A stretch of 64,000 bases of DNA from Lysinibacillus agricola. GTDB lineage: Bacteria > Bacillota > Bacilli > Bacillales_A > Planococcaceae. The position numbers were made by a program, and so were the translations under genes. The notes under the pieces were generated by a model. That model worked only from the letters and a program-made list of their open reading frames with translations. It did not search any database and was not told the origin of the DNA. Every line of letters begins with the position of its first letter. Position 1 is the first letter of the stretch. The stretch lies in NCBI RefSeq assembly GCF_016638705.1, contig NZ_CP067341.1, forward strand, positions 1,491,501 to 1,555,500. Reading direction: 5' to 3'. Positions 292 through 38,030 of the stretch are shown here, in pieces.

Positions 292-366
292 ATTTATCGG
301 AACGATTCTAAGATTTATCGGAATGATTTTTGTTTTTATCGGAATAATTATGTTCCTTGCTCAATT
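292..366. repeat. 21-nt-unit repeat array, left copy (TTTATCGGAA units)
   Basis: Three consecutive units begin TTTATCGGAA and are 21 nt long, varying in the second half. Bases 293-366 are duplicated with about six mismatches at 661-734. The right edge (366) abuts the stop codon of a short minus-strand frame (367-483). Not obviously coding. Confidence 0.8.
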
Positions 367-483
367 TTATATTTGTATACCAGAATTAACGATTTCAAGT
401 ACTTTTTTCTGAAGTGCTGGAGTTAGTGATAAATTTTTAAGTACACGATTAAATTCAGGAGAGTTTAATCGGATTTGTTTCAT
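367..483 (-). CDS. putative 38-residue protein
   Basis: A minus-strand frame starts at ATG 481-483 behind a good ribosome binding site (GAAGGGAG, about 6 nt spacing) and encodes 38 residues, beginning MKQIRLNSPEF and ending VNSGIQI. It is hydrophilic, with no signal peptide or membrane segment. I do not recognise it. Support comes from the Shine-Dalgarno sequence and natural codon usage. It could equally be the remaining 5' end of a longer gene cut short by the repeat that begins right at its stop codon. It sits between two direct copies of the TTTATCGGAA array. Confidence 0.45.
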   Translation of the reverse strand: MKQIRLNSPEFNRVLKNLSLTPALQKKVLEIVNSGIQI

Positions 484-609
484 TTAAATTGCTCCCTTCT
501 CTTACTTCTTATTAAAAGCTGTTGTGACAACTTCGACAATGAAACACTTTCTCATAGTTTCTTTCAAGACAATATGGAGGTTAATTTAATTTTATGCGGG
601 TTCACTGTT

Positions 610-734
610 TTTTTATGTTTTATCGGAAAGATATCGAGATTTATCGGAACAATTTTATGTTTTATCGGAAAGATTCTAAGATTTATCGGAATCATTTTTG
701 TTTTTATCGGAACAACTATGTTCCTTGCTTAATT
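610..734. repeat. 21-nt-unit repeat array, right copy (TTTATCGGAA units)
   Basis: Five units starting TTTATCGGAA are spaced exactly 21 nt apart. The last 74 bases (661-734) repeat 293-366. Frames through this stretch (475-732, 594-827) translate into low-complexity IYRN/FIG repeats and are not credible genes. Confidence 0.8.
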
Positions 735-822
735 GTTTATTACTTCTTAATAGATAAATCATTATTGCTCTATTATTGCTTTATTGTTAAAATTAGGGTT
801 AATTATCGTATGCCCGTAATAA

Positions 823-961
823 GTTGATTGTAGTGAAGGCTGGACGACTCCTTGGGGATCAACGTCACAGATGAGACCCTGGAGCGCAAGCGAAGCGGCT
901 CATCGGATGCCCCCAGGAAAGCGCCCAGTCGGAACGGAAATCACCCCCGCTTTATGGTGAT
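823..961. repeat. MITE-like intergenic repeat, copy 1 (left end degraded)
   Basis: It opens with GTTGATTGTAGTGAA, carries the block GACTCCTTGGGGATCA through GCGCCCAGTCGGAACGGAAA, and ends TTTATGGTGAT. Aligned to the full copy at 4174-4355, it keeps the inner inverted repeat (GTTGATT / AATCA) and right outer end but has lost the left outer end. Related GACTCC..GGAAATCAAC repeats are common between genes in Bacillaceae. Confidence 0.8.
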
Positions 962-1058
962 TAAATTAAAATTTATTTAAAAATAAAAACACGGGAGACG
1001 CTGCCAATACATATTTCTCTTTATAGTTTAGTTTACAATCTATGATAGGAGAGAAAAA

Positions 1059-1562
1059 ATGATTGAATTAAGCACTAAAAGATTAAGACTAATCCCATTA
1101 AACGCAAAGTATTTAGAATTACTAATTAATGAAGAAAAGACATTGGAAATAGAGTTGTCAGTAAGTAGTAAAGAAACTTTTCTTGATGAAGAACTAAGAC
1201 AAGCTTTGAAGTTTAGACTATCGAAAGTATTAGAAGATGAAGAAAATTATATTTGGTACACGAATTGGGTAATCGTGTCGAAAGAAAAAAACAGTATCGT
1301 TGGTGGCATCATGCTAAAAGGTCAACCGAATGAGCAGGGTGAAGTCGTAATCGGATACTATACTTTTCCGCAATATCAGGGAAAGGGATACATGACGGAA
1401 GCTGTTAGGATGATGAAAGATTGGTTGCTACGTCAATGTAATGTTAAGTATGTGATTGCCGATGCTGATAAAAATAATATTGCCTCACATAAAGTATTAC
1501 AAAAAGCAGGGGCAACGTTATATTCAGAATCTGAAGAACTATATTTCTGGAGATTCGAATAA
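1059..1562 (+). CDS. GNAT family N-acetyltransferase (RimJ/RimL-like)
   Basis: This 167-residue protein has the RimJ/RimL layout: N-terminal ELSTKRLRLIPL strand, and acetyl-CoA binding loop QYQGKG at residues 105-110 followed by the helix starting YMTEAV. The C-terminal NNIASHKVLQKAGA segment is also typical. Such enzymes move an acetyl group from acetyl-CoA to an amine; the acceptor is unknown. AGGAGAG sits 7 nt before the ATG. It is monocistronic, with the repeat element upstream and a shared bidirectional terminator downstream. Confidence 0.85.
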   Translation: MIELSTKRLRLIPLNAKYLELLINEEKTLEIELSVSSKETFLDEELRQALKFRLSKVLEDEENYIWYTNWVIVSKEKNSIVGGIMLKGQPNEQGEVVIGYYTFPQYQGKGYMTEAVRMMKDWLLRQCNVKYVIADADKNNIASHKVLQKAGATLYSESEELYFWRFE

Positions 1563-1570
1563 CATCAACT

Positions 1571-1609
1571 AAAAGACAAAGGGTGCTTTTAAAGCGCCCT
1601 TTGTCTTTT
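1571..1609. terminator. bidirectional terminator between convergent genes
   Basis: AAAAGACAAAGGG and CCCTTTGTCTTTT flank a short loop, with A-run and T-run ends serving both strands. It closes the GNAT gene and the minus-strand VanZ gene, whose stop codon (1589-1591) lies inside the loop. Confidence 0.85.
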
Positions 1610-2059
1610 GAAAATCTTCCTCGCCAACACTACAATCCCAACAAAAACAATCGCTCCAGCTGTATCCAAAATAACATCCTGTCCACTCATCGTGCGTCCT
1701 GGTGTAAAGCTTTGACGAAACTCATCTAGCATTGCAATAAGAGCTGTCCCAGCAATAGCGACACCTGCAGCGAATCGACGTTTTCCCCATGCAAAGTAAA
1801 TACCAAGTGCGATACAACCGAATCCAATAAAGTGCGTTAATTTTCGAATTAAAAACTCTACAAATTTAAAGTAACCACGCTCTTCAACAGAAACAACAGT
1901 ATCCCAATAAGGAATTTTTAGTAAAGAGAGTTGCCTTTCAAAAGGTTTATTTGCCAATACATCCTCTAATTCTGGAAGTATACTTTGTTGTTCATAGGTC
2001 ATACTAGAGGAAATCGCAAGTACTACTAAAAATGCTATTAAGATAAGCCATTTTTTCAT
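1589..2059 (-). CDS. VanZ-like family membrane protein
   Basis: This 156-residue protein has an N-terminal membrane segment (4-20) and three more hydrophobic stretches (about 73-90, 96-111, 130-146). It carries the VanZ signature RKLTHFIGF at 72-80 and DEFRQSFTPGR at 112-122. VanZ itself gives low teicoplanin resistance; chromosomal homologues mostly have no assigned role. Its ATG overlaps the stop of the upstream aldo/keto reductase gene by 4 bases (ATGA), which implies translational coupling. Confidence 0.85.
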   Translation of the reverse strand: MKKWLILIAFLVVLAISSSMTYEQQSILPELEDVLANKPFERQLSLLKIPYWDTVVSVEERGYFKFVEFLIRKLTHFIGFGCIALGIYFAWGKRRFAAGVAIAGTALIAMLDEFRQSFTPGRTMSGQDVILDTAGAIVFVGIVVLARKIFKRQRAL

Positions 2060-2955
2060 CGGTGATCCATATATTGTTCGGCTTTAGTTAGCTCTTTGAC
2101 TGCTTTAAAATCAGTTATCGAATCTATTTTTTCATAAGCGGCTAGTGTTTGCGTAAGCTGTTCCTGTGAGCTTGCACCAATCACTGTTGAGGCTACAGTA
2201 GATTCCTTTAGATTAAAGGCAAGCGCTAATGCATGTAAATCGTCATAATGTGAAGCTAAGCCTGGTAATGTTGTTGTTAATTCTTCAACTGTATACGTGT
2301 TAAAGCCATTAACACGCTGTAAACGTTCTTTCCAACTATTAGTTAGTAAACCCTTTGCAACAGTACCACGTGTTACAACGGAAGCTCCCTCACTTACGAT
2401 AAAGTCGAGCCATTCTTCTGGACGACGATCTAAAGCACTATATTGCATCATGACACTTTTTGCAGAACTTACTGGTAAAAAACGTTTTAGTACATTTGGT
2501 CGAATAGAGGAAATCCCATATTCGCGAATCAGGCCGTCCTTTTTTAAGCCTTCGAATGTGTCGATAATTCCATCCCAGTCGTCCTCAATAGTGCCACCAT
2601 GTAACTGATAGACATCAATATAGTCAGTATCTAGTCGCTTCAAGCTAGCGTGTAGAGCTTCCTTTATATATGACGATGATGCATCCCAATGCCAGCCTTC
2701 TACACCTTCTGTCCAACGATTACCAACTTTCGTAGCTACGATAACATCCTGACGACGCTTCCTTAAAATAGCTCCAATAATTTCTTCATTTGCTCCAAAA
2801 TCATATAAATCGGCTGTATCGATATAATTAATGCCAGCATCTAGTGCCATATCGACAATATCAGCAGCCTTTTTCTTATCTGTCGAAAGAGACATGCCCC
2901 CTAAACTAATTTCTGAAATAAACAATTCACTTGAGCCAAGCTGTCTTTTTTTCAT
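2056..2955 (-). CDS. aldo/keto reductase
   Basis: This 299-residue NAD(P)H-dependent oxidoreductase has the complete catalytic tetrad: D46 and Y51 (YIDTADLY), K76 (VATK) and H119 (YQLHGG). The frame runs open to 3072, but ATG 2953-2955 has AAGGAGGTC 7 nt upstream and begins MKKRQLGSSE, the normal family start. The extra upstream region overlaps the divergent nudF leader. It is first gene of a two-gene operon with the VanZ-like gene. Substrate unknown; this YhdN/general-stress-type branch reduces small aldehydes and ketones. Confidence 0.9.
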   Translation of the reverse strand: MKKRQLGSSELFISEISLGGMSLSTDKKKAADIVDMALDAGINYIDTADLYDFGANEEIIGAILRKRRQDVIVATKVGNRWTEGVEGWHWDASSSYIKEALHASLKRLDTDYIDVYQLHGGTIEDDWDGIIDTFEGLKKDGLIREYGISSIRPNVLKRFLPVSSAKSVMMQYSALDRRPEEWLDFIVSEGASVVTRGTVAKGLLTNSWKERLQRVNGFNTYTVEELTTTLPGLASHYDDLHALALAFNLKESTVASTVIGASSQEQLTQTLAAYEKIDSITDFKAVKELTKAEQYMDHR

Positions 2956-3031
2956 GCCAATGACCTCCTTCGATTTCTCTACTTGTAATGGTACAATGAA
3001 CATATCTGAAGAACAAGCGAGGTTATCGTCA

Positions 3032-3568
3032 ATGAAAAAGTTTGAGGAAAAAACGATAAAGACTACATCCATTTATGATGGGAAAATTGTGAAGCTACAG
3101 ATTGATGATGTCACTTTACCGGATGGTAATGTTGCAAAAAGGGAAATTATTAAGCATCCAGGTGCAGTAGCAGTGATTGCTGTTACTGATGAAGGCAAAT
3201 TAGTATTGGTGGAGCAATATCGTAAAGCTTTAGAGCGTTCCATTATTGAAATTCCAGCTGGTAAGCTTGAACCTGGTGAGGAGCCGCTTGTTACAGCACG
3301 TCGTGAATTAGAGGAAGAAACGGGTTACGGTGCACAGAGCTTTACTTTTTTACAGGCGTTTGCAACATCCCCGGGCTTCGCAGATGAGATCATTCATCTA
3401 TTTGTGGCAAAAGATTTATATAAAATTGAAAACAAAGCAGATTTAGATGAGGATGAGTTTGTCGAATTATTAGAAGTTTCGTTGGAAGAGGCTCATCAAA
3501 TGGTTGCAGACGAGCGTATATATGACGCCAAGACAGCGTTTGCAGTACTTTGGCTTGCGGCACAATAA
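3032..3568 (+). CDS. nudF: ADP-ribose pyrophosphatase, Nudix family
   Basis: This 178-residue Nudix enzyme hydrolyses ADP-ribose to AMP and ribose 5-phosphate. The Nudix box is intact: G77-x5-E83-x7-R91-E92-L93-x-E95-E96-x-G98-Y99. KHPGAVAVIAV and the downstream SPGF motif fit the ADP-ribose group. The start chosen is ATG 3032, behind GAGGT; ATG 2996 in frame is a longer alternative. It lies in the nudF-(membrane protein)-fur order seen near fur in B. subtilis, and is divergent from the aldo/keto reductase. Confidence 0.9.
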   Translation: MKKFEEKTIKTTSIYDGKIVKLQIDDVTLPDGNVAKREIIKHPGAVAVIAVTDEGKLVLVEQYRKALERSIIEIPAGKLEPGEEPLVTARRELEEETGYGAQSFTFLQAFATSPGFADEIIHLFVAKDLYKIENKADLDEDEFVELLEVSLEEAHQMVADERIYDAKTAFAVLWLAAQ

Positions 3569-3641
3569 GAAAATAATCTTTAGCATAATAGAGACGGACG
3601 AGCATAAGCTGTACAAACCTTGATAGAAAAGGAGCATGTTT

Positions 3642-4154
3642 ATGTCTCGTACGGTGTCTATATTTTATCACGCATCCATTATAGCTATGAGTTTCGTTTG
3701 TGGTGTTATCTTCTTTCATATTATTGGTGGGCCGAATGCAGAGCCTTTTATTTTATTTATAGAGCCTCGTTTAGCAGATGGGGACAGGCATTCTATATTT
3801 CGTTTAGTATTACCCGTTGCTGTTTCAATAGCTCTTGTGCTATTGCTTGCAACACATAGTGTCTTGAAGGTTTTAGTGCGAGTAACAGTGGCGATACGTG
3901 CAACCTTTTTTGGCTTTAGCTCGGTTTTTTTATTACAAAAACTTGAAGCTATTTGGGTTTATTCGATTTGGTGGTTTCCATTTCAGCTTATCTATTGTAT
4001 ATTGTTGCTAGTCCTATGCAATTTACTTGTACCCGCTTGGTCAAAGCGAAAAATCGGGAAAAATGTACATGGTCGGACAATTTTGTTGAATTTTATCGCA
4101 TTTTTCATCATAATAGTGGCTGAGTTTATCGTTATTTCTTATGTATTAAATTGA
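3642..4154 (+). CDS. multi-pass membrane protein at the position of spoIIM
   Basis: A 170-residue hydrophobic protein with about five membrane segments (roughly 8-26, 48-66, 74-93, 103-128, 148-168). The start is ATG 3642, with AAGGAG 7 nt upstream; ATG 3636 sits too close to that site. In B. subtilis the gene between nudF and fur is spoIIM (septal peptidoglycan breakdown during engulfment). This protein is shorter and I cannot match it convincingly to SpoIIM by eye, so orthology is suggested by position only. Confidence 0.6.
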   Translation: MSRTVSIFYHASIIAMSFVCGVIFFHIIGGPNAEPFILFIEPRLADGDRHSIFRLVLPVAVSIALVLLLATHSVLKVLVRVTVAIRATFFGFSSVFLLQKLEAIWVYSIWWFPFQLIYCILLLVLCNLLVPAWSKRKIGKNVHGRTILLNFIAFFIIIVAEFIVISYVLN

Positions 4155-4173
4155 TAAATACAATATGAAAGTT

Positions 4174-4355
4174 GCTCATCACCAAAAGTTGTGGATGACA
4201 TTTGTTAAAACATATTAAGTTGATTGGAGTGAATACTGGACGACTCCTTGGGGATTAGCGTCACAGATGAGACCCTGGACCGAAGCGGCTCATCGAACGC
4301 CCTCAGGGAAGCGCCCAGTCGGAACAGAAATCAACCAAATGTTATGGTGATGAGC
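4174..4355. repeat. MITE-like intergenic repeat, copy 2 (complete)
   Basis: The 182-bp element has perfect outer inverted repeats GCTCATCACC (4174-4183) and GGTGATGAGC (4346-4355). A second, inner inverted repeat GTTGATT / AATCAAC encloses the GC-rich core GACTCCTTGGGGATTA through GCGCCCAGTCGGAACAGAAA. There is no coding frame, so mobilisation would need a transposase in trans. It lies between the membrane protein gene and the fur promoter. Confidence 0.85.
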
Positions 4356-4415
4356 TACGAAAATTTAGCATCAGGTAAAAACATACAAAAGCATATTTGA
4401 AATCTACTCACTATC

Positions 4416-4445
4416 TTGTAATAGGATTTACTCCTTTGGTATAAT
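4416..4445 (+). promoter_or_regulatory. fur promoter (sigma-A type)
   Basis: -35 TTGTAA (4416-4421) and -10 TATAAT (4440-4445) are separated by 18 nt, 25 nt before the fur start codon. Confidence 0.65.
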
Positions 4446-4469
4446 GGAAAGAGTTTAGGGGGGCGTCAC

Positions 4470-4934
4470 ATGGAGAGCCGAATTGATCGTATAAAAAAAC
4501 AGTTGCATAGTGCTAGTTATAAGCTGACGCCGCAGCGAGAAGCAACAGTTGCTGTACTGCTTGAGCACGAGGAAGACCACCTAAGTGCAGAAGATGTTTA
4601 CCTTTTAGTAAAAGAAAAGGCACCAGAAATTGGTCTTGCTACTGTCTATAGAACGTTAGAGTTACTAACTGAGCTCAAAATTGTCGACAAAATCAACTTT
4701 GGCGATGGCGTTTCGCGCTATGATTTACGCCAAGAGGGAGCTGCGCATTTCCACCATCATCTTGTCTGTATCGAATGCGGTGCGGTTGATGAAATTCAGG
4801 AAGATTTACTTGAAGATGTGGAAGCCGTTGTTGAAAAACGTTGGAACTTTATCATAAAGGATCACCGACTAACTTTCCACGGCATTTGCTGGCGCTGTCA
4901 TGATAAAAACGACGAATCGAATGAAGAAAATTAA
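4470..4934 (+). CDS. fur: ferric uptake regulator, Fur family
   Basis: This 154-residue metalloregulator has a winged helix in the N-terminal half (KLTPQREAT at 18-26, ATVYRTLELL at 57-66). The HFHHH metal site is at 93-97, and two structural zinc pairs lie at C100/C103 and C141/C144. With Fe2+ bound, Fur represses iron-uptake genes at Fur boxes. The Zn2+ (Zur) and peroxide (PerR) paralogues are similar, but position upstream of xerD matches B. subtilis fur. Ribosome site AGGGGGG precedes the ATG; a terminator follows. Confidence 0.9.
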   Translation: MESRIDRIKKQLHSASYKLTPQREATVAVLLEHEEDHLSAEDVYLLVKEKAPEIGLATVYRTLELLTELKIVDKINFGDGVSRYDLRQEGAAHFHHHLVCIECGAVDEIQEDLLEDVEAVVEKRWNFIIKDHRLTFHGICWRCHDKNDESNEEN

Positions 4935-4939
4935 CGAGA

Positions 4940-4986
4940 AACTGTCTGTTTTAATCTTAAAGATTGAATCGGGCAGTTTTTTGTTT
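4940..4986 (+). terminator. terminator after fur
   Basis: AACTGTCTG (from 4940) pairs with CGGGCAGTT and is followed by TTTTTGTTTT. Confidence 0.75.
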
Positions 4987-5034
4987 TGTTGGAATAAGAC
5001 TTTTAACGTAATAGCTTGGACTAGTAGGGGGACG

Positions 5035-5065
5035 TTTTAGCACAATTCTAATAGCCGTGCTAAAA
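5035..5065. promoter_or_regulatory. inverted repeat upstream of xerD, possible operator
   Basis: TTTTAGCAC (5035-5043) and GTGCTAAAA (5057-5065) are perfect 9-bp arms around a 13-nt spacer. The right arm contains the -10-like TAAAAT. It could be a regulator site or mRNA hairpin; no T-run follows, so it is not a normal terminator. Confidence 0.45.
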
Positions 5066-5097
5066 TAGAGAATAATTGACAGTAGGAGGGCGTTGTG

Positions 5098-6000
5098 ATG
5101 AATGAATTTCAATATGCAATAGAGGATTATATCCATTTTATCCAAGTAGAACGGCAGTTATCCGATAATACATTAGCATCCTATCGCCGAGACTTAGAAA
5201 ACTATGTGAATTTTTTGCAGGAAGTGGCGGCAATGTCTGATTTTAATAAAGTAGAAAGAACGACCATTTTACGTCATTTAGAGCAGTTACGTATGCAAGG
5301 AAAGACAAGTCGTACTGTGGCCCGCCATATATCCTCCATTCGTAGTTTCCATCAATTTTTACTTAGAGAAAAGCGAGCAGAAACAGATCCGACAGTTCAT
5401 TTAGAAATGCCAACCATTGAGCAAAAGCTACCAAATGTTCTTTCTATTGAAGAAATTGAAGCTTTACTAGCGGCACCAAATCGCGGCAAGCCACAGGGCA
5501 TCAGGGACGTGGCAATGCTAGAGCTATTATATGGCTCAGGGATGCGCATTAGTGAGCTGATTGCGTTGGATTTAGCTGATATTCACCTAACGATGGGCTT
5601 TGTCCGCGTTTTTGGTAAGGGAGGCAAGGAGCGTATCATTCCCCTTGGAAAAAGCGCTCTTTCTGCATTAAGTAATTATTTAGGTGGTGCACGGAGTCAA
5701 TTACAAGGAAAATATCCAAAAACAGATGCTTTTTTTATCAATCAAAGAGGAAAACGTTTAACAAGGCAGGGTTGTTGGAAATTAATGAAGGAGCATGCTT
5801 TAAAAGCAGGCATTAAACATGAATTAACGCCACATACATTACGTCATTCTTTTGCAACACATTTAGTGGAGAACGGTGCGGATTTACGAGCAGTACAAGA
5901 GATGCTTGGACATGCCGATATTTCCACAACACAAATTTATACGCATATTAGTAAAACACGACTATCAGAAGTTTATAAGCAATTCCATCCACGAGCTTAA
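5098..6000 (+). CDS. xerD: site-specific tyrosine recombinase
   Basis: This 300-residue enzyme resolves chromosome dimers at dif with XerC/CodV before division. The N-terminal SAM-like domain covers about 1-85 and the catalytic domain about 110-290. All catalytic residues are visible: R150, K174, H246, R249, H272 and nucleophile Y281. ATG 5098 sits 8 nt after AGGAGGG; the GTG just before it is too close. The fur-xerD-deoB order matches B. subtilis fur-ripX-drm, so it is XerD rather than an element integrase. Confidence 0.95.
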   Translation: MNEFQYAIEDYIHFIQVERQLSDNTLASYRRDLENYVNFLQEVAAMSDFNKVERTTILRHLEQLRMQGKTSRTVARHISSIRSFHQFLLREKRAETDPTVHLEMPTIEQKLPNVLSIEEIEALLAAPNRGKPQGIRDVAMLELLYGSGMRISELIALDLADIHLTMGFVRVFGKGGKERIIPLGKSALSALSNYLGGARSQLQGKYPKTDAFFINQRGKRLTRQGCWKLMKEHALKAGIKHELTPHTLRHSFATHLVENGADLRAVQEMLGHADISTTQIYTHISKTRLSEVYKQFHPRA

Positions 6001-6090
6001 GAGAGAAAATTATATGTTAGTCGGAGGTCTGACCTTTATTTTTCGCTTTTTTTTGGTAAAATAGAGACAAGAGATTAGGAGGCAACAATT

Positions 6091-7272: not shown

Positions 7273-7286
7273 GGGGGATTATTGAT

Positions 7287-8537
7287 ATGAATATGGCACA
7301 GCTATTTGAAAAGAAGAAGCAAGGCAAGGAGCTATCACAGGCTGAAATTCAGTATTTTATAGAGGGCTACACTACTGGTGCAATCCCTGATTATCAAGCA
7401 AGTTCCCTACTAATGGCAATTCGTTTATTGGGCATGACATATGATGAAACATTTTATTTAACAAAAGCAATGATAGAATCTGGAGATGTTATTGATTTAT
7501 CATCTATTGAAGGTTTTAAAATTGATAAACACTCGACAGGTGGTGTAGGCGATAAAGTTACACTAATTGTCACTCCGATAATTGCTGCACTAGATATTCC
7601 AGTGGCGAAATTTAGTGGTAAGGGTCTAGGCATTACAGGTGGTACAATCGATAAATTAGAATCGATTCGTGGCTTTAAAACGGAGCTTTCATCACAGGAA
7701 TTCATCGACAATGTCAATAAACATAAAATTGCGGTTGCTGGTCAAACAGGCAATCTTGTACCAGCTGACAAAAAATTGTATGCATTGCGAGATGTGACGG
7801 GTACTGTCGATTCAATACCTCTTATTGCCGCGTCTATCATGAGTAAGAAAATAGCAAGTGGTGCAGACGGCATTGTACTTGATGTGAAATGTGGCTCTGG
7901 TGCATTTATGAAGACAGAAGAAGAAGCGCAAGTTTTAGCTGATACGATGACGGCAATCGGTGAAAAGCTAGGACGTAAAGTAGTCGCACATATTAGTGAT
8001 ATGGATAATCCGCTAGGTAAAATGATTGGTAATAAGCTTGAAGTAGTAGAAGCATTTGCTTTACTAAGTGGACGTATGGACGAAACACATGTGGATCTAC
8101 TAGAGGAATGTATCATTATCTCTTCGCTTATGTACCAAGTTGCAGCAGGAGTGAATGAGGCCGAAGCAACAGCAGCGGTTAAACGAGTGCTAGAAGATGG
8201 TTCAGCAGCTGCAAAATTTGAAGAATTTATCGTTGCACAAGGTGGCGATTTAGCAGATATTGTACAAAAAGACACAGCAAATAAAGTAGCTGTCAAAGCA
8301 CCTACTGAAGGCACGGTAGAAACGATTAATGCACTATTGATCGGGGAAGCAAGTGTTGGTCTTGGTGCAGGTCGATTAACAAAGGAATCTGAACTTGATT
8401 ATGATGCTGGTATTCACTTGATTGCCAAAAAGGGCGACCATGTTCGTGCTGACGAGACGATTGCTTACTTATATTCAAATCGTGAAATCGATGAGGAAAC
8501 AATCGAAAAAGTACAGAAGGCTTATACAATTGCATAA
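7287..8537 (+). CDS. pdp: pyrimidine-nucleoside phosphorylase
   Basis: This 416-residue enzyme splits uridine, thymidine or deoxyuridine with phosphate into base and (deoxy)ribose 1-phosphate. The phosphate site KHSTGGVGDK lies at 81-90, followed by the family signature around SGKGLGITGG. It is slightly shorter than the B. subtilis enzyme (about 433). In B. subtilis the gene after drm is pupG, so this arrangement differs. AAGGGGG lies 9 nt before the ATG. A strong terminator and then a 1.2-kb repeat array follow. Confidence 0.9.
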   Translation: MNMAQLFEKKKQGKELSQAEIQYFIEGYTTGAIPDYQASSLLMAIRLLGMTYDETFYLTKAMIESGDVIDLSSIEGFKIDKHSTGGVGDKVTLIVTPIIAALDIPVAKFSGKGLGITGGTIDKLESIRGFKTELSSQEFIDNVNKHKIAVAGQTGNLVPADKKLYALRDVTGTVDSIPLIAASIMSKKIASGADGIVLDVKCGSGAFMKTEEEAQVLADTMTAIGEKLGRKVVAHISDMDNPLGKMIGNKLEVVEAFALLSGRMDETHVDLLEECIIISSLMYQVAAGVNEAEATAAVKRVLEDGSAAAKFEEFIVAQGGDLADIVQKDTANKVAVKAPTEGTVETINALLIGEASVGLGAGRLTKESELDYDAGIHLIAKKGDHVRADETIAYLYSNREIDEETIEKVQKAYTIA

Positions 8538-8551
8538 ATAATACGAATACG

Positions 8552-8594
8552 AAGCGAGAACTCTCTTTGAGAAGGGGGGTTCTCGCTTTTTTTT
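8552..8594 (+). terminator. terminator after pdp
   Basis: AAGCGAGAAC pairs with GTTCTCGCTT around the loop, followed by eight T's. Confidence 0.9.
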
Positions 8595-8610
8595 ATTCTG
8601 AAAGCAGGGC

Positions 8611-9774
8611 GCCGGAAAGAAAAGCTAAAGCGACGGAAAGAAGGGCCGAAGTGACGGAAAGAAGGCAGAGCGACGGAAAGAAGGGCCGAAGTGACGGAAA
8701 GAAGGCAGAGCGACGGAAAGAAGAGCCGAAGCGACGGAAAGAAGGCAGAGCGACGGAAAGAAGAGCCGAAGCGACGGAAAGAAGAGCCGAAGTGACGGAA
8801 AGAAGAGCCGAAGCGACGGAAAGAAGAGTTAAAGTGACGGAAAGAAGGGCCGAAGTGACGGAAAGAAGGCAGAGCGACGGAAAGAAGGGCCAAAGCGACG
8901 GAAAGAAGGGCCGAAGCGACGGAAAGAAGGCGGAGCGACGGAAAGAAGGGCCGAAGCGACGGAAAGAAGGTAGAGCGACGGAAAGAAGGGCATAAGCGAC
9001 GGAAGAAGAGCCGAAGTGACGGAAAGAAAAGTTAAAGTGACGGAAAGAAGTCAGAGCGACGGAATAGAAGGGCCGAAGCGACGGAAAGGAAGGCAGAGCG
9101 ACGGAAAGAAGAGTCAAAGTGACGGAAAGAAAAGTTAAAGTGACGGAAAGAAGTCAGAGCGACGGAATAGAAGGGCCGAAGCGACGGAAAGGAAGGCAGA
9201 GCGACGGAAAGAAGGGTCGAAGCGACGAATAGAAGAGTCGAAGTGACGGAAAGAAGGCAGAGCGACGAAAAGAAAAGCTAAAGCGACGGAAAGAAGAGCC
9301 GAAGTGACGGAAAGAAGGCAGAGCGACGGAAAGAAGAGCCGAAGTGACGGAAAGAAGGCAGAGCGACGGAAAGAAGAGCCGAAGCGACGGAAAGAAGGTA
9401 GAGCGATGGAAAGAAAAGCTAAAGCGACGGAAAGAAGGGCATAAGCGCCGGAAAGAAGAGTCGAAGTGACGGAAAGAAGGCAGAGCGACGGAAAGAAAAG
9501 CTAAAGCGACGGAAAGAAGAGCCGAAGTGACGGAAAGAAGGGCCGAAGCGCCGGAAAGAAGGGCCGAAGCGACGGAAAGAAGAGCCAAAGCGACGGAAAG
9601 AAGGCAGAGCGACGGAAAGAAGGGTCGAAGCGACGGAAAGAAAAGCTAAAGCGACGGAAAGAAGGGCATAAGCGACGGAAAGAAGAGCCGAAGCGACGGA
9701 AAGAGGGGCCGAAGCGACGGAAATAAGGCAGAGCGACGGAAAGAAAAGCTAAAGCGACGGATAGACTATCAAAC
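8611..9774. repeat. 1.16-kb tandem array of GACGGAAAGAAG units (21 and 19 nt)
   Basis: More than 50 consecutive units begin GACGGAAAGAAG. Two main forms intermix: 21 nt ending GGCCGAAGY and 19 nt ending GCAGAGC. The plus strand is almost all purine with periodic C. Frames of 142-174 codons on both strands arise because the unit contains no stop; they have no ribosome site and read as low-complexity protein. A segment with rare variants (GACGGAATAGAAG, GACGGAAAGGAAGG) occurs twice, about 103 nt apart (9058 and 9161), showing recent internal duplication. It occupies the place of dacF before spoIIA. Confidence 0.95.
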
Positions 9775-28479: not shown

Positions 28480-28703
28480 ATAGCATGATGCTAAATTTGG
28501 ACAAATGGATGCATGGAATTTAATAAGTAAATTTTTGGAGCATTTTCGCCATTGTCTGTGCGTGAATGCTCCTTTTAGTTAATGGTGCTTTTAGCGAGTA
28601 TCGGTAAATCATACAAATCTAATCGGATTTTTTTGAGCAAAGCTATTTACTTTTTCCTAATAATTCATTATAGTAAAGCTAGAAACAAAAAAATATTGAT
28701 TCA

Positions 28704-28893
28704 TCTTCGGGGCAGGGTGAAAATCCCGACCGGCGGTAATAGAGTTGTAAATCGCTAATGTTTCTTTTAAGATACATTGGCTCGAATGATTTACTAAAGA
28801 CTCTTCAGCCCGCGACCTGTGCAAAGTTTTTTGCATGGCTGACTTGGTGCAATTCCAAGGCCGACAGTTAAAGTCTGGATGGGAGAAGATGGA
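28704..28893 (+). ncRNA. FMN riboswitch (RFN element)
   Basis: The conserved RFN blocks are present in order: CTTCGGGGCAGGGTGAAA, TCCCGACCGGCGGTAA, TTCAGCCCGCGA, GACTTGGTGCAATTCC, AAGGCCGACAGTTAAAGTC and TGGATGGGAGAAGATG. The P3 to P4 spacer is longer than in the shortest examples. Binding of FMN would lower expression of the downstream ribU through the terminator at 29014-29046. Confidence 0.95.
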
Positions 28894-29013
28894 GGTACGA
28901 TCGTCATTCGTTGTTATGAATTTAGCTATATACGAGCGTTTTTTTCGGTGTGACTTCACACAGCTCTTGCTCAAAAATAGCTAAATAATGGCGTTTTTTA
29001 ATCATGCCTATTC

Positions 29014-29713: not shown

Positions 29714-29747
29714 AACCTCGAGTAGTTAAGTGCTCGAGGTTTTTTTA
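29714..29747 (+). terminator. terminator after ribU
   Basis: AACCTCGAG and CTCGAGGTT pair perfectly and are followed by seven T's. Confidence 0.92.
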
Positions 29748-29752
29748 TGTGA

Positions 29753-29920
29753 GACGGATAGAATTGCGGAAACGACGGATAGAGTTGTCAAAGTGATGGA
29801 TAGAATCATCGAAGTGACGGATAGGCCCGCCGAAGTGACGGGTAGAATCAACGAAAAGACGGATAGAACCGCATAATCGAAGTATAGAATCGTTAAAACG
29901 ACAGTTAGAATTTATCTAGT
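29753..29920. repeat. 21-nt-unit array, eight diverged GACGGATAGAA units
   Basis: Eight units of exactly 21 nt begin GACGGATAGAA or close variants and end CGAAGT, AAAGT or similar. The core matches the 8611-9774 array (GACGGAAAGAA). Divergence between units suggests an older or inactive array. It lies between the ribU terminator and the next gene and has no open frame of interest. Confidence 0.88.
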
Positions 29921-29980
29921 CGAGCTTAGTATTTTCATGTAGAATAAGGAAGAGTTTAGAATGTTGAGGAGTTTGAAGAG

Positions 29981-31327: not shown

Positions 31328-31329
31328 GA

Positions 31330-31373
31330 AAGTAGGTTGTATTCCATCTAACAGGGATACAACCTACTTTTTT
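31330..31373. terminator. terminator between convergent transporter and STAS genes
   Basis: AGTAGGTTGTATTCC and GGGATACAACCTACT are nearly perfect arms, followed by TTTTTT on the plus strand; the minus strand also has A/T flanks. Confidence 0.88.
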
Positions 31374-31397
31374 ATAATGATGGGGGCAACAATAGGG

Positions 31398-31784: not shown

Positions 31785-31823
31785 ACTATAGCGCCTCCAT
31801 TTTCTTTTTAATGTTTGAAATTT

Positions 31824-32033: not shown

Positions 32034-33725
32034 AAACTTGAATTTATTGACTTCATTTTGTAATTTATCAGCAATTGAGGCTAATTCATCTGAACTTTGT
32101 GTAATTTCTGCAACAGTTGCATATTGTTCTTCTGATGTTGCAGCGATTTCCTCTGTTGCTGCTGCGGAGTCTTCGATGATACGAGAAATATCTTGAATAG
32201 CTTGTTGTACACCTAAGGAGTTGTCGTTTACATTTGTGAATGCAACCTTCATTTGCTCAACACCTTTTTCTGTTTCTTCAACCTTTTCAACAATTTCCTT
32301 TAAAGCAGCTCCTCCTTTATTAATAATGGTTACCTGCTCTTCTACTGCGAGCAGATTACTTTCCATTGTGCGAACTGTCACAGAGGTTTCAGCCTGGATA
32401 TCATTAATAAGATTTGTAATTTGTCCTGATGCTAAGCTTGACTGTTCAGCTAACTGGCGTACCTCTGATGCAACAACGGCAAAGCCTTTTCCTTGCTCGC
32501 CTGCCCGTGCTGCTTCGATGGCTGCATTAAGGGCAAGTAGATTTGTTTGCTCTGCGATGCCGGTGATAACGGTAATAATGCCTCCAATTTCTTCAGATCG
32601 TTTACCGAGTTTTTGAATAGAATCTGTCGCATAAGATACTGTTTGTGTGACATCGCTTAAATGCTTGATGGCCTCATTAATCGCCTCTTCGCCTTTACGT
32701 GCAATATGAGTTGATTGTATAGCGCTATTTAAAGTGTCCTCGGCCTTTTGTAAACTACTTGATACTTCTTTAATCGTTTTTTGCATCATTGACACAATTT
32801 GTTCAGCTTGATCAGATTGTGTCGTAGTACCAACTGCAATTTCATTCATCGTAAGTGCAATTTGGTTAGAAGCCTCACTTGTTTGATGTGATGATTCTGC
32901 TAATGAGTGTGATGAGTTAGCTATTTGGCTGGCGCTACCAGCTACGATTGTCATCGTCTCTGTTAAACGATTTTTCATATCACTAAAGGCATTTGCTAAG
33001 ACAGCAATCTCATCTTTACCTTTAGGGTTTAATAGCTTTACATTTAAATTTAAATCTGCTAACTCTTTGGCGTTTGTACTTAAAATATTGATAGGGGTGA
33101 TGATTTGTCGTTGTAAAAACCAACTAATCCCAACAATTATTAAAATGGCAATTCCTAAGGAAATCGCTACATTTTCCAGTGCAGATTTTGTAGCAATGCT
33201 TATATAAGGAGCGGTTGGAACAGCTGTTGCCCATACTCCAATAACATCTCCTTGGCTATTTAAAATTGGATCATAGGCTCCTTGGTGCATACTACCTAAG
33301 ACATTTGCTGAACCGATAAAACGCTTTTTTTCTCCTAACACAACAGTCGCAACTTCATCAGAAACCTTTGTATTTAATGCGCGATCACCATTTTCAACGA
33401 TATTTGTACTAATACGAGTATCGTTTTGAAAGATTGAGACAGCGTTTCCGTTTGTTAACTCTCCAACTTTATCAGCGACGTCAAAATTGTCTACCATTTT
33501 GACGTCGCCTTTATACAATTGATCATTTTTAATGGACCATTCTCCAGGGAATTTAGCATCTAAATATTCATAGCTCACTTGAATATCTGATAAAAGCTTT
33601 GTATTTGCGCTTTCTAAAAGATTTTTTTGGGCAACATAAAAATTTATTCCTGCTAAAAGTGTAGTGAGTAGTAAAATACAACCAAATATAAGCAGGCTCA
33701 TTTTTCTTCGGATTGACAGCTTCAT
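32031..33725 (-). CDS. methyl-accepting chemotaxis protein
   Basis: This 564-residue receptor has two membrane helices (about 9-30, 185-207) around a Cache-like sensor, then HAMP (about 208-262) and a signalling domain. The hairpin tip contains [20 protein letters not shown]. Such receptors control CheA, but no che genes are near. It is third in the partner-switching operon, 15 nt after the kinase, so it may instead feed that module. GGAGGAG precedes the ATG. The last codons KFKF lead directly into the structured repeat. Confidence 0.92.
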
Positions 33726-33740
33726 TAAAACTCCTCCATT

Positions 33741-34166
33741 TTATACATGAATCTTTTTTGAAATACCAACTAAAAATTTCGTTTCAGAAATATTTTCAAA
33801 CCAAATATGGTCGACCATATTTTTAACAAAAAATAAACCTCGCCCGCGATCTGAATAATCGAGTTCGTCTAAATCAAACTGTAGAACGTTATCCAAATCA
33901 TTTTCGGCAATCCCTTTCGCTTCATCAATAACCGTTATTTTTATTTCTTCATTTGATTGGGATACATAAACTTGAATTTCCTTTTTGGAGCATGAGTCGA
34001 TTTTTCCCATTGCTTCTACTGCATTGATAACTAATTCATGTACGACAAAACGTAATTCTCTTTTATGAGATAGATTATATATATTTGTATAATTTTCCAT
34101 AATTTGATCTACAAAGGCTATAGCTTGTGTATCAGGATTTACTTTGAGTGTGAATTCCATCATCAT
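33741..34166 (-). CDS. RsbW-like serine kinase (GHKL ATPase)
   Basis: This 141-residue ATPase of the anti-sigma-factor kinase type has N box HELVINAVEA (44-53), G1 box DEAKGIA (81-87) and DRGRGLF (106-112). It would phosphorylate the STAS protein of the operon and bind another partner. Several start codons are stacked (GTG 34169, ATGs 34166, 34163, 34160); AGGG spacing favours 34166 or 34163. It overlaps the phosphatase stop. Confidence 0.85.
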   Translation of the reverse strand: MMMEFTLKVNPDTQAIAFVDQIMENYTNIYNLSHKRELRFVVHELVINAVEAMGKIDSCSKKEIQVYVSQSNEEIKITVIDEAKGIAENDLDNVLQFDLDELDYSDRGRGLFFVKNMVDHIWFENISETKFLVGISKKIHV

Positions 34167-35311
34167 CACCGACCCTGTAATGTAATTGTTATTGAAACTA
34201 CTGTTATATCATCACTGTAATCATTGTCGAATAAATCGTATTTTTGAGAAAATTTTTGCAAGGCATAGCTATTGTCTTGTGAAGCGTAGGAATGGAAAAA
34301 GTCCATATCAATAACATGCTGTTCATTTATTGTCAGTAATCCATCCGTATAAAGTATTATGCGATGCCAGCCAGATAAAGGTATCGTTTTTTTATTGATA
34401 AAAATGGTTGGGAATAGCCCCAGGATGGGTGTAGTTGCTGGGAGAAACACCGTCTCTCCGTATTTTCCAAATAAAAAACCAGATGGGTGAGCCGCATTAA
34501 CATAGTGTAAAGTTCCATTTTTCGTATCAATAAGTATGTAGATAGCCGTCATTAAAAAACGGTCCATATCTTCATCAGAAAATAGCTCGTAAATTTGGCG
34601 GTTAAGTTCTCTAATCACAGAAACTGGATCAATTAATGTTGTAATCATACCTTTTAACAGAGATCTAATGGACATGGTAACGAGTGATGCGGCAATGCCG
34701 TGCCCCATAGCGTCGTAAAGAAGAATGGCAGTTAAATGTTCATTAATCTTAAACCAGCAGTACATATCACCCCCTAATGTATTAGATGTAACATAAAGCC
34801 CATCAATCTGAATATGTTCAAGATTCAATGGAGGTGATAATGCATTTTTTTGAAATTTTTTTGCGACAATTAAATCTTTTTGAATAATGCTTTCTTGCTG
34901 CTTTCGTAGCTTGGCTTCCTTTTGATATTTGAGGGCAACCTGAATTCGAGTCTTAAATTGGGTGAAGTCAAATGGTTTTAAAATAAAGTCGAAAATACCA
35001 GCTTCAAAAACCCTATCAATTGTAATGTTTTTTTCGTAAGTAGTAGAAAGAAGGATAGGGGCATCAATCCAGTTTTTTAATGCGTCAATTTGCTGACAAA
35101 TGTTCTCGCAATTTTTAAGTGTCATTTTTGCATCGAGAATAATTAATTCCAACTCTGCTTTCAAAGGATCTAATAAATAATTCATTGCAGCTTCAGGTGT
35201 TGTAAAGCAATGAACATTTTTGATGTCGATACGATGAAAATATTTTTGCAGACGCAACACATCATTACTTACGCTGCCAATAATTAATACTGACATGCTT
35301 CCTACATTCAC
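34166..35311 (-). CDS. PP2C phosphatase with degenerate receiver domain (RsbU/SpoIIE-like)
   Basis: This protein of about 381 residues has a receiver-like domain (1-125) and a PPM/SpoIIE phosphatase domain (about 165-381). The receiver keeps D60 (LIILDAKMT) and K112 (ILKPFD) but lacks the usual acidic pair near the N-terminus (SVLIIGSVSND), so normal phosphorylation is doubtful. The phosphatase metal sites GGDMY (D182), DAMGHG (D200), YTDGL and DDITVV are intact. It should dephosphorylate the STAS protein. Start is GTG 35311, or ATG 35296 (five residues shorter). First gene of the operon. Confidence 0.87.
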   Translation of the reverse strand: MNVGSMSVLIIGSVSNDVLRLQKYFHRIDIKNVHCFTTPEAAMNYLLDPLKAELELIILDAKMTLKNCENICQQIDALKNWIDAPILLSTTYEKNITIDRVFEAGIFDFILKPFDFTQFKTRIQVALKYQKEAKLRKQQESIIQKDLIVAKKFQKNALSPPLNLEHIQIDGLYVTSNTLGGDMYCWFKINEHLTAILLYDAMGHGIAASLVTMSIRSLLKGMITTLIDPVSVIRELNRQIYELFSDEDMDRFLMTAIYILIDTKNGTLHYVNAAHPSGFLFGKYGETVFLPATTPILGLFPTIFINKKTIPLSGWHRIILYTDGLLTINEQHVIDMDFFHSYASQDNSYALQKFSQKYDLFDNDYSDDITVVSITITLQGR

Positions 35312-35649
35312 CGCCTTATGTATCTTTAACTGAAGATTTCTAGGAATCGTATATAATAATTTCTGACTATTATTATATACGCCTTATTTACTTATCTGAT
35401 GAATAATACAGAAATTCTAATTTGCTATAAATTTACCAATAAATATGACATTATACAAGACTATTGTGATATAAAATATGGAAAAAAAGTTTTTGTATCA
35501 AGTGATAAAGTCAAAAACTTTTAACTGAAATACTTTTTGGTGAGTCTAAAGACCTTAATTGGAAAGTGAGAGGAAAGTGCAGCTCTATCCATCTGAAAAA
35601 AAGATTAATATATTCGAAAAAATCTATGTAATAAAACCTAACATAAACA
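35312..35649. other. AT-rich divergent region between the phosphatase operon and glnA
   Basis: No coding frame is credible; a 67-codon frame (35559-35762) lacks a ribosome site and runs into glnA. The promoter of the minus-strand operon must lie near 35320-35420, but I could not fix its boxes. Confidence 0.5.
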
Positions 35650-35678
35650 TTGCGTTTTTTGTCCTTGTATTGTATTTT
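35650..35678 (+). promoter_or_regulatory. likely glnA promoter
   Basis: TTGCGT (35650-35655) and TATTTT (35673-35678) are 17 nt apart, placing transcription start near 35685. Confidence 0.5.
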
Positions 35679-35700
35679 AAAAACAGTTGCAAAGAAATGA

Positions 35701-35717
35701 TGTTAATTAAAATTACA
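35701..35717. promoter_or_regulatory. GlnR/TnrA-type box in the glnA leader
   Basis: TGTTAATTAAAATTACA fits TGTNA-N7-TNACA exactly in its outer positions. It lies between the predicted transcription start and ribosome site, 16 nt before the glnA ATG, so binding would block transcription. Confidence 0.55.
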
Positions 35718-35733
35718 TTGGAGTGGTGGGAAA

Positions 35734-37068
35734 ATGAAACATTATACAAGAGAAGATATTAAACGCCGAGTGAAGGAAGAAAATGTGAAATTTATTCGCC
35801 TACAATTTACTGATATATTGGGAACGATTAAAAACGTTGAAGTACCCGTTAGCCAATTAGAAAAAGCATTGGACAACAAAATGATGTTTGATGGCTCATC
35901 CATTGAAGGCTTTGTACGCATTGAAGAATCAGATATGTACTTACGTCCGGACCTTTGTACCTTCGTGATTTTTCCTTGGACTGCTGAAAAGGGTAAGGTG
36001 GCGCGCTTTATCTGTGATATTGTTAGGCCAGATGGTACACCGTTTGAAGGCGATCCACGCTCCAATCTGAAGAGGGTTTTAAAGGAGATGGAGGAGTTAG
36101 GCTTTAGCTCATTTAATTTAGGACCAGAGCCGGAATTTTTCTTATTTAAGCTAGATGAAAAAGGACATCCAACACTTGAGTTAAATGATAGCGGTGGATA
36201 CTTCGACTTAGCCCCAACTGACTTAGGAGAGAACTGTCGACGTGATATCGTATTAGAGTTAGAAGGAATGGGCTTTGAAATCGAGGCATCACATCATGAG
36301 GTTGCGCCTGGTCAACATGAAATCGACTTTAAGTATGCAAGTGCAATCGAAGCATGTGATAATATTCAAACGTTTAAGCTTGTTGTAAAAACGATCGCTG
36401 CACAGCATGGATTACACGCAACGTTCATGCCAAAGCCATTATTTGGTGTCAACGGTTCTGGAATGCATTTCAACCTATCCTTATTTGAAGGGGATAAAAA
36501 TGCGTTTTATGATGAAAATGCAGAATTGCAATTAAGCCAAACAGCGCGTAGCTTTATAGCAGGAATACTAAAACATGTACACGGTTTTACAGCTGTCACA
36601 AACCCACTTGTTAATTCCTATAAACGATTAGTGCCAGGCTATGAGGCTCCTTGCTATGTAGCATGGTCTGCACAAAACCGTTCACCACTTATTCGAATTC
36701 CAGCTGCACGAGGATTATCTACACGTATCGAGCTTCGTTCTGTCGATCCGGCAGCAAATCCTTATTTAGCAATGGCGGTTATTTTAGCAGCTGGGCTCGA
36801 TGGAATTCGCAATGATCTAACCCCTCCAGATGCTGTAAATCAAAATATTTATAAAATGTCACGAGCTGAGCGGGAATTAAACGCAATCGATAGTCTCCCA
36901 TCGTCATTGGAATATGCACTCCTTGAACTAGAAATGGATCATATCGTCCGTGAAGCACTTGGAGACCATATCTTTGAAAAATTCACTGCTGCTAAAGAAA
37001 TAGAATGGAATAAATACCGCACACGTGTCCATGATTGGGAGAGGGAAGAATATTTGAAAATGTATTAG
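35734..37068 (+). CDS. glnA: glutamine synthetase, type I-alpha
   Basis: This 444-residue enzyme makes glutamine from glutamate, ammonia and ATP and has the length of Bacillus GlnA. Landmarks are [19 protein letters not shown] (beta-grasp and latch region), [16 protein letters not shown] and [17 protein letters not shown]. In Bacillus the feedback-inhibited enzyme also controls GlnR and TnrA; glnR is not next to it here. GGAGTGG precedes the ATG. A GlnR/TnrA-like box overlaps the leader. Confidence 0.95.
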
Positions 37069-37074
37069 AAGGGG

Positions 37075-37108
37075 AGTGTTGGAGCTTTGGGGCTCCGACA
37101 CTTTTTTG
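37075..37108 (+). terminator. terminator after glnA
   Basis: GTGTTGGAGC and GCTCCGACAC pair nearly perfectly, followed by TTTTTT. Confidence 0.88.
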
Positions 37109-37383
37109 ATTTAAAATACAAAGAAGAAGGCCAGGCCACCCAATCTTTCCTAAATAGGGATAGCCTTTTTTAGTTAGTTAGCTCACTTTGGATAATTAAT
37201 TTGTATTTTTCATTTAGTTCTTGGTTAAAGATGTAAGTATTATTTTCAGTTGAAAATCTAAAAGTATAAGGTATTTCTAACCACCCTCCTAATATACAGC
37301 TTTTGCTTTTACTCCTGATATATTTTATTGTGACAAATCTTCCCTTTTATTCTATGATTAGAAGAAAAAGGGGGATAAAACAT
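37109..37383. other. spacer with a possible minus-strand gene remnant
   Basis: On the minus strand an open frame ends at 37170-37172 and reads EIPYTFRFSTENNTYIFNQE and onwards, which looks like natural protein. A GGAGGG ribosome-like site lies 9-10 nt before an ATA codon where an ATG would be expected. It is probably a small gene that lost its start. The plus strand holds the leader for the following small gene. Confidence 0.35.
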
Positions 37384-37560
37384 ATGGCGCAAGCGACTCA
37401 AGTAGTTACCATCCAAAATAATGATATTGTGCAATTTGAAAATGATATTAATAATGCTCTATTAGATTTAAGTGGCTATCTGATTGTAGATATTAAATAC
37501 AATACTTTATATATTGGTGATCAGACAGTTATACATTCGGCTTTAATTATTTATAAATAG
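37384..37560 (+). CDS. small protein, 58 residues, possibly Cse60-like
   Basis: ATG 37384 lies after AAGGGGG; the frame opens earlier (37303) without a ribosome site. The protein begins MAQATQVVTIQ and ends LIVDIKYNTLYI..HSALIIYK. The pattern of an amphipathic helix, VDIKY strand and S-x-LIIY end recalls small sporulation-linked Cse60-type proteins, but this is a visual resemblance only. It is followed 23 nt later by another small gene. Confidence 0.6.
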   Translation: MAQATQVVTIQNNDIVQFENDINNALLDLSGYLIVDIKYNTLYIGDQTVIHSALIIYK

Positions 37561-37583
37561 CTTACTTAAAGGGGAGATAGAAC

Positions 37584-37793
37584 TTGTCAAAAGTATATTG
37601 GGTATCAATTGCTAAAAGAACAGATGAATCTGAAGTGGAGCAGAATGTCATTGAAAAAATATTTGCCAAGAAATCTGAGCTAAAGGATTTTCTAGATAAA
37701 GAAGGTTATTGTAAGGCAGCGAAAAATCAATATATTAAAATCAATGATGAATCGATATACGAAGCGGCAATTGAGAAAGTAAAAATGAAATAA
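37584..37793 (+). CDS. small hypothetical protein, 69 residues
   Basis: TTG 37584 has AAGGGGAG upstream. The product is charged and probably helical (KRTDESEVEQNVIEKIFAKK), with no membrane segment or signal peptide. Codon usage is like neighbouring genes. I do not recognise it. It is probably cotranscribed with the 58-residue gene, and the 21-nt repeat array begins 18 nt after its stop. Confidence 0.6.
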   Translation: MSKVYWVSIAKRTDESEVEQNVIEKIFAKKSELKDFLDKEGYCKAAKNQYIKINDESIYEAAIEKVKMK

Positions 37794-37811
37794 TCATTGA
37801 TATAAGAGTTT

Positions 37812-38030
37812 ACCCGCGGAAAAGAAGTGAATACCCGCGCGAATCAGGGAAATACCCGCGGAAGAGAAGCGAATACCCGCGCGAATCAGGGAAATACCCG
37901 CGGAAGAGAAGTGAATACCCGCGCGAATCAGAGAAATACCCGCGGAAGAGAAGCGAATACCCGCGCGAATCAGGGAAATACCCGCGGAAGAGAAGCGAAT
38001 ACCCGCGCGCCAGAGAAATACCCGCGAGAA
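37812..38030. repeat. 21-nt-unit array in 42-nt dimers (ACCCGCGGAAGAGAAG)
   Basis: Two 21-nt units alternate: ACCCGCGGAAGAGAAGYGAAT and ACCCGCGCGAATCAGGGAAAT, about 10 in all, nearly identical between repeats. It is far more GC-rich than its surroundings. A GTG-started frame of 68 codons (NTRANQG/NTRGREA repeats) crosses it but is explained by the period and is probably not a gene. Confidence 0.93.

Follow-up and report, generated by a model that had tools for sequence, protein, structure and literature searches.

The stretch examined here is a 64-kb piece of Lysinibacillus agricola DNA (contig NZ_CP067341.1; "the window" below means this whole stretch), and the element in question is a set of intergenic tandem arrays whose units recur every 21 bp (Table 1). 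A first-pass annotation had placed four such arrays; they lie about where it put them and each has period 21, except that the first is in fact two arrays, 1a and 1b. It had also described a purine-rich stretch in the units, which holds for arrays 2-4 but not for array 1 (A+G about 43%), and had remarked how closely arrays follow a terminator or stop codon, as we also find: arrays 1a, 2 and 3 stand behind a terminator, and array 4 starts 18 bp behind a stop codon. Going by sequence comparison, we lean towards reading these arrays as the Lysinibacillus forms of a wider intergenic element, a ladder of sites for one sequence-specific protein at the 3' ends of genes.

Table 1. Arrays and adjoining features in the window (TRF, Tandem Repeats Finder)
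Feature	Position (nt)	Strand	Basis or remark
Hairpin of the upstream gene's intrinsic terminator, directly 5' of array 1a	250..280	+	Arms 250-258 and 272-280; sequence reading
Array 1a, TTTATCGGAA units, period 21	292..366	+	TRF 292-349
Array 1b, TTTATCGGAA units, period 21	610..734	+	TRF 611-714
Intrinsic terminator of gene 7287-8537, 5' of array 2	8554..8594	+	Sequence reading
Array 2, GACGGAAAGAAG units, about 56 units, steps of 21 and 19	8600..9765	+	TRF
Intrinsic terminator 5' of array 3	29716..29746	+	Present at orthologous loci too
Array 3, GACGGATAGAA units	29749..29919	+	TRF 29753-29891, degenerate units to about 29919
Conserved block between array 3 and the next gene; candidate promoter region	29915..29950	+	Recurs in orthologous intergenic sequences
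Array 4, ACCCGCGGAA family; TACCCGCGGAAGAGAAGCGAA and TACCCGCGCGAATCAGGGAAA alternating, 42-bp higher unit	37811..38030	+	TRF 37811-38026

Period 21 was compared with other periods, as the first-pass annotation had proposed, in a 1.264-Mb sample of the same genome rather than genome-wide (60 stretches of 20 kb at even spacing, together with the window), and the outcome left its idea of a shared mechanism standing. The commonest tandem period is 21 bp, with 32 of the 78 TRF clusters (score of at least 60, smallest period taken per cluster), followed by 36 bp with 17, and no other value exceeds 3. Autocorrelation gave 74 periodic segments in the window and the 60 stretches and none in Markov copies of the 60 stretches, and reversed-pattern controls in this genome likewise gave 0. 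When the distance from core to core is measured, the GACGGAWAG family yields 21 bp 55 times, 19 bp 15 times and 20 bp twice, and ACCCGCGGA yields 21 bp 38 times and 19 bp twice, both plus multiples, while TTTATCGGAA yields 21 bp in 15 out of 15. Most clusters with a 20-22-bp period and a score of at least 50 (34 of 45) lie outside gene calls.

These arrays belong to several sequence families, i.e., GACGGAWAGAA..CAAAGT, ACCCGCGGAA..GTGAAT, TTTATCGGAA.., CGATAAAA..AAAGTTGGG, TCGTCGGTAGAG.., CTCGGGTAGG.. and others. The common CGGAA/CGGAT core claimed at first is recurrent, CGGA occurring at least twice in 17 of the 29 sample arrays listed, yet it is only one of several core types: all 17 fall within three families, and others, such as CGATAAAA..AAAGTTGGG, have no CGGA core. 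Since CGGA is confined to three families, the 21-bp step is more general than the core. The sample also holds a second tandem class of period 35-37 (TTGTTGCTGTCGCTTCGCTTTCGCACAGATAAAACA and variants; 22 of the 78 clusters, e.g., L091:12680-12996 and L075:1543-1855).

Beyond Lysinibacillus, four CGGA spaced at 21 bp were found in 113 of 261 Planococcaceae genomes, spread over 14 of 19 genera, with the reversed control at 16 of 261. Among matches to the reversed pattern, three genomes of genus g17 (G174, G179 and G207) stand out by frequent AGGC at 21-bp intervals, a hint that ladders of this step may exist there with a different core. Arrays of g18 and of genome G018 (g6) retain GCGGATA and an A/T-rich edge. 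A three-core pattern, which matched 45 of 46 g12 genomes along with many control matches and 21 of 25 g18 genomes against 8 for the control, served only for fetching loci in these two groups. Among the ladders of CGCGGATAAA, several stand on one strand within tens of kb at G107:C21:170653-222325 and at the orthologous G087:C11:144510-155015.

Because the g18 and G018 loci used for comparing adjacent units had been chosen by exact 21-bp spacing, the step was retested with any core spacing from 10 to 40 bp permitted and with reversed-pattern controls alongside. For GGCGGATA, in ten genomes, 77 of 92 pairs are 21 bp apart, the others being 20 (seven), 19 (two), 22 (one) and 40 bp (five), with none elsewhere; for TCGCGGAAT, in two f33 genomes, 31 of 32 pairs are at 21 bp and one at 38; for CGCGGATAAA, all 73 pairs are at 21 bp, in four of six g12 genomes, the other two having no such pairs. 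The reversed controls gave 0 in all three tests. Some loci are shared between related genomes, which makes the rows of these tests partly non-independent. The bases between the cores, in contrast, are scrambled. In g18, the free columns of adjacent units agree at 0.31 (n=44) as against 0.34 for units of different loci (n=1874), and in G018 at 0.32 (n=15) as against 0.26 (n=183), so that neighbours are about as alike as units from separate loci and are not fresh tandem copies. Likewise, arrays at the same position in different g18 species (L262/L277/L283, L275/L279/L288 and L261/L286) have largely unrelated free bases, apart from one unit that L279 and L288 have in common, and the same is true across genera for L168 (g6) and L276 (g18), both of which have the upstream gene's stop codon inside the first unit.

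The step is thus kept in three other lineages despite scrambled bases between the cores, which supports the earlier proposal that something shared maintains the 21-bp unit; as far as these alignments go, the step is more strongly conserved than the sequence. Under neutrality, at most about 17% of steps should be kept (12 free sites, assuming one indel per ten substitutions), with a range of 3-41% for indel ratios of 0.2-0.05, whereas 84-100% are kept. Retention of the step while the spacers are saturated argues that indels are selected against. Helical phasing, which had been offered as one possible reason for 21 bp, is by itself too weak an explanation: spacings of 10, 11, 31 and 32 bp were allowed in the three tests and none was seen, so that the ruler is more simply explained by neighbours in contact than by a shared helix face. 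Slippage on a preferred unit, also proposed at first, fails as the whole story, as neighbours in g18 and G018 are not copies, although it contributes in Lysinibacillus.

Within the unit, kept and free columns were compared at the array-3 locus, a region matched in all 32 genomes of the genus sample, the source genome included (30 orthologous loci were fetched, and 27 yielded intergenic sequence). Across 44 distinct 21-nt units from 14 orthologous loci, 16 contiguous columns are kept at 0.62-2.00 bits (AAAGTGACGGATAGAA, running across unit ends), of which the search anchor partly determines the first five or six but not the other ten or so, and five contiguous columns are nearly free at 0.10-0.33 bits. 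There would be no reason for five free columns at fixed places in a neutral array. In the source genome's 36-bp arrays, which served as control, none of the 36 columns falls under 0.5 bits.

Loci compared among Lysinibacillus relatives also show that the arrays change. The gene at 7287-8537, which we take to encode a pyrimidine-nucleoside-phosphorylase-like protein, has a product 97% identical in Lysinibacillus xylanilyticus. Behind this gene, 21-bp arrays differing in length and unit mix occur at 6 of 19 Lysinibacillus loci, namely the six whose protein is 95-97% identical, and no array is found at the other 13, whose protein is 86-90% identical. At the array-3 site, the interval from terminator to conserved block holds, depending on the species, anything from no recognisable units up to dozens, with only possible relics in some species, 913 bp of mostly units in L308 and other repeats in L304.

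The number of units, by comparison, is small in most of the relatives examined. Counting with steps of 19-22 bp and two mismatches allowed, and excluding single cores, we find 5 units in 12 of 17 f33 arrays, 4-5 in all six of G018, 5-6 in 11 of 13 of g12 and 4-5 in 23 of 34 of g18 (GCGGATA). Some arrays also have a recognisable 5' edge: in f33, CCAGTT precedes the first CGCGGAATT in most arrays, where it frequently forms a hairpin's 3' arm, and a leader hairpin of the type TGGAAAAAA..TTTTTTCCAGTT stands immediately 5' of the first unit in L347, L349, L352, L357, L358 and L361, while in g12 GGCTGG or a similar sequence precedes CGCGGATAAA. Defined edges of this kind would suit a transposase- or integrase-like mechanism that adds units or is mobile, has its own ruler and involves no binding function, as would the fact that terminator, leader and array appear copied together in places: terminator and leader (CTTTGGAAGGTGGATG) are nearly the same in three CGATAAAA (F4) arrays of the source genome (L051:9930-10100, L062:2940-3113 and L062:19310-19479), as if copied as one block. 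We nevertheless regard such a mechanism as highly improbable, given that conservation grades off like a binding-site profile instead of ending sharply, that the one Lysinibacillus-type pattern searched was unmatched in viral contigs, and that arrays 2 and 3 were unmatched in plasmids by BLAST with the low-complexity filter on.

The position and strand of the arrays point to gene ends. For the count of 82 arrays given below, genes came from our own hexamer caller and some of the arrays are orthologs of one another. In the sample of the source genome, 27 intergenic arrays (two at stretch edges excluded) divide into 18 tandem, 8 convergent and 1 divergent, against 17.0, 5.0 and 5.1 expected from intergenic length, i.e., a depletion of divergent (p=0.027) and an excess of convergent positions (p=0.11), and many of them start directly behind a terminator or stop codon. 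Across 82 arrays, taking the core strand as plus, 33 arrays between tandem genes run with the genes and 7 against them (p=4e-5), with 19 convergent, 6 divergent and 17 for which at least one side could not be assigned. A rule tying orientation to the replication strand was also considered and rejected. GACGGAWAGA pairs number 109 forward and 49 reverse, and the 100 rows listed, which reach up to 2.09 Mb, are all on the plus strand, which looked strictly leading-strand; an array at 442,845, between convergent genes and missed by this pattern, is on the other strand. Gene strand fits the orientation of the arrays better than replication strand does.

The same strand bias would be expected of an element that works as RNA, in which the ladder, carried in 3' or read-through transcripts, would offer repeated sites to an RNA-binding protein, for example as a CsrA-type sponge. 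Tandem arrays lie mostly on the coding strand of the upstream gene, as just described, some have no visible terminator before them (L274 has its hairpin 3' of the array), and GACGGA fits the CsrA binding core, which is ANGGA. However, by a rule-based count 23 of 51 arrays have a terminator in the 100 nt before them and only 5 in the 100 nt after (15 and 5 of 42 when one orthologous locus, accounting for nine arrays, is left out), even if over half of the 51 have no upstream terminator visible to the rule. Folding is inconsistent, with z-scores from -3.7 to 0.8 for nine arrays on both strands against mononucleotide shuffles, and a ladder of RNA hairpins was rejected for this lack of a consistent sign. 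The sponge was rejected as well: GGCGGATA ladders have no ANGGA, and CsrA (PF02599) occurs in array-poor as well as array-rich genomes (29 of 30), the exception being the array-rich G004. Overall, we consider an RNA-level element unlikely. A coding repeat, for which 21 bp would be seven codons, was rejected too, as every frame of array 2 contains stops (2 to 16), steps of 19 and 20 bp break the frame, and conserved columns are contiguous irrespective of codon position. Open frames of 123 to 174 amino acids do occur inside array 2 on both strands (window 8522-9588), and these could enter annotation as hypothetical proteins.

Returning to a ladder of protein sites, the element would be a head-to-tail series of motifs at gene 3' ends, one motif (about 9-16 bp, in many cases containing CGGA) per 21-bp unit, with 5-12 bases of each unit nearly free. 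Each motif is predicted to be bound by one and the same sequence-specific protein, whose protomers may touch from one site to the next and so fix the step at two helical turns; in Lysinibacillus, unit duplication would then have added the long, minisatellite-like expansions. Standing behind the terminator, such a ladder could act as a polar fence, at which polymerase leaving the gene would be stopped or marked. This last step is a guess from position and strand alone and is more apt to be wrong than right. What the sequences themselves show is the kept motif with its free columns, the constant step, the low unit number in most relatives examined, the location at 3' ends and the strand bias; the protein, its binding to DNA instead of read-through RNA, and the effect are what we infer.

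A number of observations weigh against a ladder of protein sites. The core motifs differ among lineages, and G237 (g18) mixes steps of 20 and 21 bp which, with the second form of 19 bp in Lysinibacillus, means that the step has some play. Unit numbers have long exceptions, with arrays of 8 and 21 units in G252 and up to 16 in G237. The orientation has exceptions, with 7 of 40 tandem arrays opposite and 6 of 82 arrays divergent, and arrays are gained and lost at a single locus. Outside Planococcaceae, the class-wide CGGA pattern occurs in 46 of 359 genomes against about 41 of 359 for the reversed control, a count that proves nothing there, so that the case outside the family rests on f33 and single examples. 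In the source genome, the split into kept and free columns is weaker (columns below 0.5 bits number three of 21 in GACGGAWAG, two in TTTATCGGAA, six in CGATAAA and none in ACCCGCGGA, which has few distinct units), and neighbouring units of GACGGAWAG resemble each other (0.60 vs 0.35), which indicates that duplication is at work; this duplication is a point against the proposal, as is the fact that the protein is only predicted. Finally, the terminator and leader common to the F4 arrays make spread by recombination or a mobile process possible.

Several of these points would be natural for neutral minisatellites, in which a single ancestral repeat of 21 bp would have been spread by recombination and lengthened by slippage, the period being simply inherited. 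Besides the alike neighbours and the shared F4 leaders, the arrays of the source genome have higher periods of 40, 42, 61, 82 and 103, and length differs between species at one site. Set against this are the free columns at fixed places in the unit, the neighbours in g18 and G018 that are not copies, and the excess of kept steps over the neutral expectation given above, and we therefore hold this explanation to be improbable, if less so than a mobile mechanism.

If the ladder of protein sites is correct, a large group of Bacilli would possess, at many loci in each genome, a gene-end system that has a dedicated binding protein and sets its own spacing, and the long intergenic repeats of Lysinibacillus, with their open frames, may be an expanded functional element and not junk. 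Two further features were noted in passing. A dispersed repeat CGCCCAGTCGGAACGGAAATCA..GATGAGCC lies at about 840-950 in the window and in L057, L062 and L001, and also adjoins several arrays. The consensus of the DnaA box is TTATCCACA; TTATCC, on the opposite strand of some motifs, is the only part in common with it, a likeness noticed without a scan for boxes.

With respect to known systems, Rfam covariance models gave no array match at gathering score in the window, and the only hits, an FMN (flavin mononucleotide) riboswitch at 28699-28894 (+, 111 bits) and a Bacillaceae-1 RNA at 50924-50990 (+, 68 bits), lie outside the arrays. Searches of the open-access literature found no description of such arrays. 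Since minisatellites, REP/BIME (repetitive extragenic palindromes and bacterial interspersed mosaic elements), CRISPR (clustered regularly interspaced short palindromic repeats), a CsrA sponge and LytTR operators each fail in a defining feature, we rate the class as new, with a reserve for subscription literature. It could be, though we put this a little below an even chance, that the arrays represent an undescribed class of chromosomal element in much of Planococcaceae and in one or more further families of Bacilli. Such an element would be an oriented ladder behind gene ends, as a rule of 4-6 motifs, with a fixed 21-bp step and free spacer bases, and a predicted self-assembling DNA-binding protein would make it a gene-end fence, insulator or chromosome organiser.

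A LytTR repeat is about 9 bp long. In the excerpts of PMC6193735, LytTR operators are described as direct repeats with conserved length and spacing and low sequence conservation, most of them separated by 12 bp, and as pairs just upstream of the -35 element. The present ladders differ in having more than two units at gene 3' ends instead of pairs at promoters, on which ground a promoter-upstream LytTR pair was rejected; the likeness lies in direct repeats that keep their spacing better than their sequence, and in the step, as the 12-bp gap and the repeat length would add up to about 21 bp. The LytTR domain (PF04397) was found in all of 24 genomes, whether rich or poor in arrays. Plasmid iterons measure about 19-22 bp. 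Like the units of the present arrays, iterons are direct repeats, few in number and evenly stepped by about two helical turns, and they serve as sites for an oligomerising protein, as is predicted for the ladders. The excerpts of PMC11711613 give six regularly spaced 12-bp iterons for the RctB origin. Iteron systems comprise one origin with an initiator gene and an unwinding element, whereas the present arrays stand at dozens of chromosomal gene ends and are not origin-located (many gene ends along chromosomes; no search for initiator genes was made), so the match is in form only.

REP/BIME, according to the excerpts of PMC2817692, have many extragenic copies, regular spacing, binding of chromosomal proteins and a suggested role in termination and chromosome organisation. 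The many extragenic copies per genome and the regular spacing are common to both; REPs, however, are palindromic and alternating, whereas the present units run head to tail, are non-palindromic and have no consistent fold. Bacterial satellites and minisatellites, as covered by the excerpts of PMC6749651, resemble the arrays in being tandem intergenic repeats of one unit length, a likeness strongest in the long Lysinibacillus arrays, and differ by the free columns, non-copied neighbours and small unit number seen in relatives. Near-copy neighbours, which characterise minisatellites and variable-number tandem repeats, are absent in g18, not clearly present in G018 and partly present in the source genome.

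In CRISPR arrays, a repeat of about 21-48 bp alternates with a spacer of about 26-72 bp, whereas here 21 bp make up the entire unit, its 5-12 free bases included. The eukaryotic Pol I terminator arrays bound by TTF-I or Reb1 are oriented, repeated protein sites behind a gene's 3' end. The present arrays may be compared with them as oriented repeats just behind the 3' end of a gene; with another polymerase and another domain of life, this is an analogy of mechanism only. If the ladder of protein sites holds, it would nevertheless be a bacterial counterpart of protein-bound terminator or insulator arrays.

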